This document shows, piece after piece, positions 51,138 to 53,231 of a DNA stretch of 64,000 nucleotides. Both the position numbers and the translations under genes were made by a program. Origin of the DNA: Acidicapsa ligni (GTDB lineage: Bacteria > Acidobacteriota > Terriglobia > Terriglobales > Acidobacteriaceae); NCBI RefSeq assembly GCF_025685655.1, contig NZ_JAGSYG010000001.1, forward strand, positions 1,054,001 to 1,118,000, read 5' to 3'. The notes under the pieces are model-generated. The model did not search any database, had not been told where the DNA came from, and saw only the letters and a program-made list of their open reading frames with translations. How positions within the stretch are numbered: position 1 is the stretch's first letter; each line of letters begins with the position of its first letter.

Positions 51138-53231
51138 ATGTCAAAAGCGAGTAAATACGCAGAGAAAGCCGTCGTCTACGCAGCTAAGGGTGCGTGGGCA
51201 GTGTTCGAGCGCCTCAACAGCATCAACCCGAATGCGTCCATTACCCCCAAGTGGAGCGACAAGCCTCTGCTCAAGAGCTGGCAGAAAGAGAAGCCTCCCC
51301 TCGGATGGCCTCGTTCGACCGATTCGCTCTGCCCGAAGTGCGTACCGGAGATTCGCCAGCAGATTCTCGACGGCAAGCTTCCGCACGAAGTTCTTCTCAA
51401 TGAGAAGGTTGGCGAAATCAAGGCTCAGATCATCGAGCGCGATGGCTCCATCTATATGGTCAAGGATTGCCCCAAGCATGGTCACTTTGAAGATCTGATG
51501 TCTCACGACACGGCCTTCTTCCGGCATCTTGAAGAGACCTTCCCGGGCCGCGACATCCGCGCTCACAATGATGAGAAGCTGCACAATCACGGCACGTCCA
51601 CCGTTACCCACGGCCGCGGTTCGGTTCTCACCATCGATCTCACCAATCGCTGCAACATGATGTGCGATCCCTGCTTCATGGATGCAAACCAGGTCGGCTT
51701 CGTTCACGAACTCACCTGGGATGAAATCAAGACCATGCTCGACAACGCGATCACCATCAAGCCGCGTCGTCAGATGAGCGTGCAGTTCTCGGGCGGTGAG
51801 CCGACCCTGTCGCCTTACTTCCTCGATGCTGTCGCTTACTCCCGCAAGGTTGGTTACAACAGCGTTCAGGCTGCTTCGAACGGCATCGAGTTCGCCAAGA
51901 GCAAAGAGCTTTGCCGCGCTGCTGCTGAAGCCGGACTTCGCTATGTCTACCTGCAGTTCGACGGCATCGGCAACGCTGCCAACTCGCACCGCAAGGTCGG
52001 CAACCTGTTTGACGTCAAGCTGCAGGCCATTGCCAATCTGCATGAAGCCGGTGTGGATATCGTGCCCGTCACGACCATCATCAACGGCATCAACAATGAG
52101 CAGGTCGGCCGCATCGTTGAGTTTGCGCTCGACAACCCCAAGACCATCAGCTTCCTCAGCTTCCAGCCGGTTTCTTTCACTGGCCGCGATGAGGACATCA
52201 GCGACGATCGCCGCCTGGCGCAGCGTTACACGCTCAGCCATCTCGCGCACGACGTCAAGAATCAGACCGGCCTCGGCGAACCGACGCGCGACTGGTTCCC
52301 TATCAGCTTCATGAGCACCTTCTCTGACTGGGCCGATAACGTTCACGGACCCAACAACGACTGGGGCCAGCTCTCCTGCGGATGCCACCCGAACTGCGGT
52401 ATCGGCATGGCGCTGATGATTGATAAAGAAACCAAGGAAGCTGTTCCCGTAACCGCTTTCCTGAATGCAGATCGTCTTGCCAAGGATGTAGCCAAGGTGA
52501 ACGATGCCGCTCGCGGCAAGTTCCTCTCCATCTTCGGTATCACGCTTGCTCTGCTTCGGAACTACGATCCGTTCAAGGCTCCTACCCACTTCACGATCAG
52601 CTCCATGATGAAGAAGATGGACAAGAGCTTCGGCGCCACCGGTAAGGATTACGGCAGCGTCAAGGGCGACCGTACCCTGGCGGACATCGAAAAGCGCCGC
52701 GCCGATCGTTGGAACTTCCTCTTTATCGCCGGTATGTGGTTCCAGGATCTGTTCAACTACGACTTCCGCCGTACTGAGCAGTGCATCATTCCTTACGCCA
52801 CGCAGGAAGGCGAAATCAGCTTCTGCGCTTACAACACCGGCGTAGGCTGGCGCAACATCATCGAGAAGATGCACATGACTGCTACCCTCACCAAGTGGTA
52901 CGAGGAGCACGGTCGTCATGAAATCTTCGCCGGTGGTAAAAAGGTCGGCATGGCTGAGCCGGGTCACAAGCTCCAACTGAACATGGAGCACGTCAACTCT
53001 GAAGCTAATCACACGCTGGACGATCTCGGCATTGCCAAGAACTCCCGCGAAGAGAAGATTCGCGCCCGCGACGAAAAGATCAAGGCCGACGCCGAAAGCG
53101 CTCGTATGGCCAAGCTCTATCGCGAGCATGTTCTCGGTGAAAAGCCAATCGAAGGCCTGATCCGTCTCGACGCTATCGCTCCCGCGAAGCCTGTCGCAAC
53201 CCGCAGCGAAGAGCCAGTCGCAGGCGACTAG
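51138..53231 (+). CDS. Tes/MJ0619-like radical SAM protein, candidate membrane-spanning-lipid synthase
   Basis: 697 residues from the ATG at 51138 (AGGAG 12 bases upstream; a TTG at 51069 is weaker). The radical SAM motif CxxxCxxC is CNMMCDPC (172, 176, 179), followed by the SAM-site SGGEPT. The N-terminal extra cysteines SLCPKC (65, 68) and KDCPKHGHFE (111) are the hallmark of the MJ0619/Tes family, whose archaeal member joins two lipid tails to make GDGTs. A C-terminal region with further cysteines (SCGCHPNC, TEQC, SFCAYN) may hold more clusters. Acidobacteria make iso-diabolic acid and branched GDGTs, so this is a strong candidate; the function is inferred. Codons end in C unusually often. 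Confidence 0.8.
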   Translation: MSKASKYAEKAVVYAAKGAWAVFERLNSINPNASITPKWSDKPLLKSWQKEKPPLGWPRSTDSLCPKCVPEIRQQILDGKLPHEVLLNEKVGEIKAQIIERDGSIYMVKDCPKHGHFEDLMSHDTAFFRHLEETFPGRDIRAHNDEKLHNHGTSTVTHGRGSVLTIDLTNRCNMMCDPCFMDANQVGFVHELTWDEIKTMLDNAITIKPRRQMSVQFSGGEPTLSPYFLDAVAYSRKVGYNSVQAASNGIEFAKSKELCRAAAEAGLRYVYLQFDGIGNAANSHRKVGNLFDVKLQAIANLHEAGVDIVPVTTIINGINNEQVGRIVEFALDNPKTISFLSFQPVSFTGRDEDISDDRRLAQRYTLSHLAHDVKNQTGLGEPTRDWFPISFMSTFSDWADNVHGPNNDWGQLSCGCHPNCGIGMALMIDKETKEAVPVTAFLNADRLAKDVAKVNDAARGKFLSIFGITLALLRNYDPFKAPTHFTISSMMKKMDKSFGATGKDYGSVKGDRTLADIEKRRADRWNFLFIAGMWFQDLFNYDFRRTEQCIIPYATQEGEISFCAYNTGVGWRNIIEKMHMTATLTKWYEEHGRHEIFAGGKKVGMAEPGHKLQLNMEHVNSEANHTLDDLGIAKNSREEKIRARDEKIKADAESARMAKLYREHVLGEKPIEGLIRLDAIAPAKPVATRSEEPVAGD

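Follow-up and report, generated by a model that had tools for sequence, protein, structure and literature searches.

The 64,000-nt window, the whole stretch of DNA that was analysed, carries a gene for a radical SAM protein that, judged by its sequence, is Tes-like and not a Tes orthologue and belongs to a bacterial clade of its own, here called B. Comparison of the B proteins with their relatives makes B a fairly likely candidate for the enzyme that produces ester-bound iso-diabolic acid, which is our main reading. A bolder one, to which we give a probability of roughly 0.45, goes further: B would form an enzyme class of its own, adapted to oxygen, that couples tails through a C(sp3)-C(sp3) bond, has dropped the surface N-terminal 4Fe-4S cluster, acts on ester phospholipids without an ether step, and accounts for most of the iso-diabolic acid of soil acidobacteria; it would predict membrane-spanning lipids in the aerobic myxobacteria Sorangium and Polyangium. 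Iso-diabolic acid accounts for about a quarter to half of the fatty acids in some soil acidobacteria (PMC12935467; this and the other papers cited were available to us as excerpts), and its ether relatives, the brGDGTs, serve as climate archives from which past temperature and pH are read (PMC13274423). Separating B, found in oxidase-bearing genomes mostly without PF09989, from the Tes proteins that go with PF09989 proteins (here called T) would split a single list of candidates into two predictions, each open to testing, and alter which genomes count as brGDGT makers in environmental surveys.

Previously, acidobacterial Tes homologues were proposed for brGDGT synthesis by Zeng et al. 2022 (PMC8941075), and those of Solibacter were proposed for the same role by Halamka et al. 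(PMC10087280). The activity of bacterial Tes is called unconfirmed in the available part of a 2025 paper, and in the literature searched the coupling enzyme of aerobic acidobacteria is so far a proposal. Within the texts covered by our search, supplements aside, no report separates clade B, notes its missing cluster, or tests the gene; the B/T split and the lost N-terminal cluster do not appear in the passages of Zeng et al. consulted (PMC8941075).

The gene is intact in the open reading frame list, running on the plus strand from an ATG at 51138 to 53231 and encoding 697 amino acids with no internal stops. The four motifs from which the initial annotation had argued were all recovered in the product, SLCPKC at residue 63, KDCPKHG at 109, CNMMCDPC at 172, and SGGEPT at 218, and the Pfam models Radical_SAM and Zn_ribbon_HMPTM each scored above their cut-offs. 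A 753-aa antisense open reading frame (51141-53402) was judged to be a shadow of the conserved frame and rejected as a gene. The single-gene setting described earlier is borne out by the AAGGAG before the ATG and the 16-pair hairpin past the stop. The further suggestion of dedicated expression holds as far as gene spacing and this one strong hairpin go, because a scan of the region found 5 terminator-like sites against 3.6 ± 2.1 expected, no more than in shuffled sequence, and no sigma-70-like promoter. The scan scored just the inner 5 pairs of the hairpin at 53246-53282; all 16 are read from the sequence. Neighboring genes code for an RlpA-like DPBB/SPOR protein, a mutY-like glycosylase, and two products without a Pfam match, and no lpx gene is among them. 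When 41 loci were compared, no conserved operon was seen around the gene; the neighbors differ, the commonest being the RlpA-like gene (8/41) and mutY (5/41).

Table 1. Sequence features of the B gene and its surroundings (positions in the window)
Feature	Position	Strand	Basis
B-type Tes-like radical SAM protein, 697 aa	51138..53231	+	ORF, homology
Shine-Dalgarno-like AAGGAG, 12 nt before ATG	51120..51125	+	read from sequence
N-terminal helix, residues 2-27, fairly amphipathic, putative membrane anchor	51141..51218	+	predicted model
Rubredoxin-like site, pair one, C65 and C68	51330..51341	+	alignment
Rubredoxin-like site, pair two, C111 and H114	51468..51479	+	alignment
HNDEKLHNHG at the place of the GDGT-MAS N-terminal 4Fe-4S ligands, cysteine-free	51564..51593	+	alignment, PMC9433317 (excerpt)
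Radical SAM cluster C172, C176, C179 (CX3CX2C)	51651..51674	+	alignment
SGGEPT motif	51789..51806	+	sequence
QPVSFTGR, aligned with GDGT-MAS SAM-closing loop Gln268/Ser271/Arg275	52164..52187	+	alignment
CGCHPNC; C420 presumed C-terminal cluster cysteine, C414 and C416 extra	52377..52397	+	alignment
M533, aligned with labile cluster ligand Met439	52734..52736	+	alignment
C549 to C563, presumed other two C-terminal cluster cysteines; Y553 corresponds to Tyr459	52782..52826	+	alignment
Terminator-like hairpin, 16 perfect pairs, 5-nt loop	53246..53282	+	read from sequence
Terminator-like hairpin between upstream gene and B gene	50818..50842	-	scan
Hairpin upstream of B gene	50780..50802	+	scan

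The best solved relative of the protein is GDGT-MAS (MJ0619, 7tol; phmmer E = 1.3e-60 over residues 93-588). A predicted model of the 697-aa protein (mean pLDDT 88.7, from a 62-sequence alignment) superimposed on 7tom with Z 44.0 and an rmsd of 2.4 Å over 478 aligned residues, so that residues 56-594 are predicted to have the overall GDGT-MAS/Tes fold (PDB 7TOL, 7TOM). The next family, MoaA, reached Z 20.6, and the structural matches listed below 7tom and 7tol were other radical SAM proteins. In contrast to GDGT-MAS, with which it shares 30% identity, B has about 55 extra N-terminal and about 100 extra C-terminal residues (1-55 and 595-697, both outside the 7tom match) and extra cysteines in CGCHPNC. 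The hydrophobic moment of its N-terminal helix ranks 14th highest among the 680 windows scored.

To compare metal sites, the residues named in the available part of PMC9433317 were mapped onto B through the alignment with MJ0619 (7tol), and counts were made over 150 B proteins, 15 acidobacterial T proteins, and the relatives L088 and L089, after dropping identical proteins and frames shorter than 300 aa. The rubredoxin-like Cys-X2-Cys ... Cys-X2-His site is present as C65, C68, C111, and H114, with PF23545 above its cut-off, and is complete in 148 of the 150 B proteins (L055 and L162 each miss one ligand). The radical SAM CX3CX2C motif and the Q-S-R SAM loop (Q343, S346, R350) were found in 150/150, and so was the set C420, M533, C549, and C563. 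Conservation in B, T, and 7tol suggests that C420, C549, and C563 are ligands of the C-terminal 4Fe-4S cluster, and M533 aligns with its labile ligand Met439. The earlier assignment to the MJ0619/Tes family is thus upheld for sequence, fold, and three of the four metal sites, though not for Tes proper. In GDGT-MAS a third 4Fe-4S cluster, bound by C73, C77, C80, and a His, sits at the protein surface (PMC9433317). The corresponding auxiliary motif, CX3CX2CX2H, occurs in 0/150 B vs 15/15 T proteins; at its position an H/R-x-H-G motif is found in every B protein (150/150) and in none of the T proteins (0/15). Since the N-terminal cluster lies on the surface of GDGT-MAS, losing it need not stop catalysis.

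Two of the checks proposed in the initial annotation, a profile search against Tes and a tree of homologues, set the protein apart from Tes. Against NF045702, the NCBIfam Tes equivalog, it scored 321.5 bits, below the cut-off of 450; as controls, the genomes of M. jannaschii, S. acidocaldarius, and M. acetivorans passed this cut-off. In a tree of 82 proteins (searched quickly, its terminal branches long and its root uncertain, and used for the B split only), the B proteins together with the degenerate L088 are split off by a branch with SH-aLRT 100. We therefore call the protein Tes-like and not Tes: it misses the cut-off, it has its own branch, and its N-terminal 4Fe-4S motif is gone. Within its own branch, identity to relatives across the phylum is 61-89%; for paralogous branches it is 49-60%. 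B shares with acidobacterial T-type Tes the phylum and the remaining metal sites. T, in contrast, retains CX3CX2CX2H and goes with PF09989, and T genomes have a haem-copper oxidase less often than B-only genomes. The membrane-spanning lipid synthase Mss of Thermotoga and Bacillota is described as having the architecture of Tes and as producing fatty-acid lipids that span the membrane (PMC13274423).

If B follows the model put forward for GDGT-MAS (PMC9433317), a 5'-deoxyadenosyl radical would remove a hydrogen from the end carbon of the first tail, and a sulfide in the C-terminal 4Fe-4S cluster, beside the labile ligand Met533, would hold the resulting carbon radical. Cleavage of a second SAM would then generate a radical on the second tail, which would attack the parked carbon. 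By the alignment, B retains the residues expected to hold the first radical at the C-terminal cluster. The N-terminal helix may serve as a membrane anchor, and loss of the surface N-terminal cluster would suit aerobic cells. Cluster occupancy, substrate, and product of B are here inferred by analogy. Two 13-methyltetradecanoyl tails joined at their terminal methyl carbons give exactly 13,16-dimethyl octacosanedioic acid, and Zeng et al. point out that iso-branched lipids have the same tail ends as isoprenoid ones (PMC8941075).

The link between lipids and genes was drawn by taxon, not by strain. Named B records among the best 80 of at least 584 relatives include Bryobacteraceae, Pyrinomonadaceae/Blastocatellia, Luteitalea, and a 'gp1' MAG, which we take to represent subdivisions 3, 4, 6, and 1, respectively. 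Three two-contig genomes carrying the FMO protein, presumably a mark of Chloracidobacterium, were assigned to that genus; each has one B (E ≤ 1e-40) and no T, and B is their only Tes-like match. FMO and two chromosomes are named for Chloracidobacterium, which makes iso-diabolic acid (PMC12816986). This acid has been reported for Acidobacteria subdivisions 1, 3, 4, and 6 (PMC13274423), and it amounts to 26.8-49.2% in five Occallatibacter/Terracidiphilus strains (PMC12935467). E. aggregans makes it as well (PMC13274423); this organism, which produces brGDGT under oxygen limitation, has one Tes homologue with 32% identity to M. acetivorans Tes, and the identities given for the homologues of Koribacter and Solibacter are 42% and 40% (PMC8941075). 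By sequence, the E. aggregans homologue would be a B protein and those of Koribacter and Solibacter T proteins. A division into B for esters and T for ethers is not clean: Ca. Koribacter versatilis, whose Tes homologue is T-like, makes iso-diabolic tetraesters (PMC13274423). Solibacter has two Tes homologues and makes tetraethers, with no iso-diabolic acid after hydrolysis (PMC10087280), a point against B should either homologue be a B protein. Another, Mss-type enzyme in the source genome may also be a source of iso-diabolic acid.

An unlikely alternative is that B couples the tails of outer-membrane or other lipids, such as the acyl chains of lipid A, or closes two tails within one lipid. 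GDGT-MAS itself makes links both within and between lipids (PMC9433317). An LpxD-like cluster (identified in L078) adjoins the paralogue B2 in L099 and L100 and lies one gene off in L078 and L080, i.e., in four of the five loci with that cluster and in two families. In addition, the gene group of B in L091-L093 contains an LpxC cluster (identified in L092), as does that of T in L097; DUF4390 and a two-component pair that has a sigma-54 activator belong to this group too. However, these lpx neighbors belong to more distant B branches and none is next to the window's gene, and abundant iso-diabolic acid needs a tail-coupling enzyme, for which B is the sole Tes-like match in the Chloracidobacterium genomes.

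We regard as quite improbable that B is a diverged radical SAM enzyme with a non-coupling role, as may hold for L088 and TrsS-like proteins. Relatives without the C-terminal cluster residues do exist (L088, L089), and B gives a partial profile match to the radical SAM family TrsS (NF045646), but its 212.4 bits are far under the cut-off of 490, and the C-terminal cluster residues plus Met are kept in all 150 B proteins. L088 (7739-9625, congener G001) is a strongly diverged second B-like protein that keeps the radical SAM and rubredoxin residues and has lost those of both auxiliary clusters except the Met. L089 (7823-9247, congener G010) is a 475-aa relative with the N-terminal cluster motif and without the C-terminal cluster residues; partial matches resembling it occur in several genomes of the genus.

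The distribution of B and T was analyzed in 247 acidobacterial genomes by score bands, T being above the NF045702 cut-off. A Tes-like match at E ≤ 1e-40 was present in 136/247: 118 genomes have B and 27 have T (18 T alone, 9 both), and 111 have neither. These counts cover every genome with a match, although the lists of individual matches were cut at their end. Among the genomes listed, which are ordered by kinship, start with other classes, and leave out 91 without a match, B was found in 29/29 genomes of the window's class in this sample. Score bands for 61 close relatives, the source genome included, gave B in 45 (two in pieces), T alone in 6, and neither in 10, of which four are at least 90% complete. 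B is not universal in the window's class, and with 9/247 genomes having both, B and T are not mutually exclusive phylum-wide; both observations count against the main reading. In family f2 of the same order, 9/11 genomes had one of the two and not the other (T in 5, B in 4), 2 had neither, and none had both, as expected if T and B stand in for each other. Five genomes of the window's class were found with both; in three of them (G035, G125, G168) B and T lie 2.9-5.7 kb apart, which is not the case in G029 and G058. At L062, L063, and L064, from three genomes of the window's family, the distances are 2.9, 3.4, and 5.7 kb.

A search of named genomes returned at least 584 relatives at E ≤ 1e-3, some of which may fall outside B. 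The best 80 of these include sequences from several groups of acidobacteria and from Sorangium, Polyangium, Minicystis, other Myxococcota MAGs, and a KSB1 MAG; the closest B protein among them is that of an 'Acidobacteriales' MAG (81% identity), which fits an acidobacterial origin of the window. B occurs in Sorangium and Polyangium, and the literature covered by our search showed no report of membrane-spanning lipids in them, a point against the main reading. Five plasmid records matched at 24-28% identity, four haloarchaeal and one from Persicobacter.

The genomic company of T and B differs. We take PF09989 to be the domain that marks Ger/PlsA-type ether enzymes, and count as Ger/PlsA-sized any open frame of 950-1300 aa with a PF09989 match, limits that were chosen after viewing the matches. 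Proteins of this size occur in 18/27 T genomes vs 12/220 others (p = 3e-13 in a test that, like our other genome-association tests, ignores shared ancestry), in 10/109 genomes with B alone, and in 2/111 with neither. For any PF09989 match the counts are 20/27 T genomes vs 43/220 others. No firm link to B overall was seen (19/118 vs 11/129, p = 0.08, kinship ignored). In G240, T and a PF09989 domain are about 2.4 kb apart. PF09989 is not specific to ether lipids: the control search gave matches in Thermotoga maritima, but in Thermus, Deinobacterium, and Lactococcus as well. A profile search of the source genome found no PF09989 protein, and because a Ger/PlsA-type protein is missing, we predict ester-bound iso-diabolic acid in preference to tetraether brGDGT. 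The least probable alternative, nearest to the initial annotation, Zeng et al., and Halamka et al., is that B is a plain bacterial Tes making tetraether brGDGT from diethers: B is homologous to Tes in sequence and predicted fold, and the brGDGT-making E. aggregans has a single Tes homologue (PMC8941075), but B scores under the Tes cut-off, forms a separate clade, and lacks the N-terminal cluster motif, its source genome is without PF09989, and Ger/PlsA-size PF09989 follows T.

Haem-copper oxidase was found in 102/109 B-only vs 18/27 T genomes (p = 6e-4, kinship ignored) and in 73/111 genomes with neither. The idea that B is a mere marker of aerobic life was rejected, given two oxidase-bearing families, f31 (22 genomes) and f55 (11 genomes), without B or T at E ≤ 1e-40.

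Several further neighbors were recorded. At L098 (7959-11088) the gene next to T has B12-binding and weak radical SAM matches and may encode a ring- or methyl-adding enzyme. In the named genomes L156, L161, and L164, genes that belong to one cluster end just before B, with CX3CX2C visible in L156 and L161. A gene for a DUF4440 lipoprotein was seen close to T at three loci (L063, L064, L069) and following B at two (L081, L177); with matches in 7/61 relatives and none in the source genome, it is not claimed as a partner. Elsewhere in the window, two adjoining genes at 43450-47003 encode weakly TldD-/PmbA-like proteins of 634 and 549 aa, well under the curated cut-offs, and a tRNA-Leu (CAG) gene occupies 57031-57117 on the plus strand.
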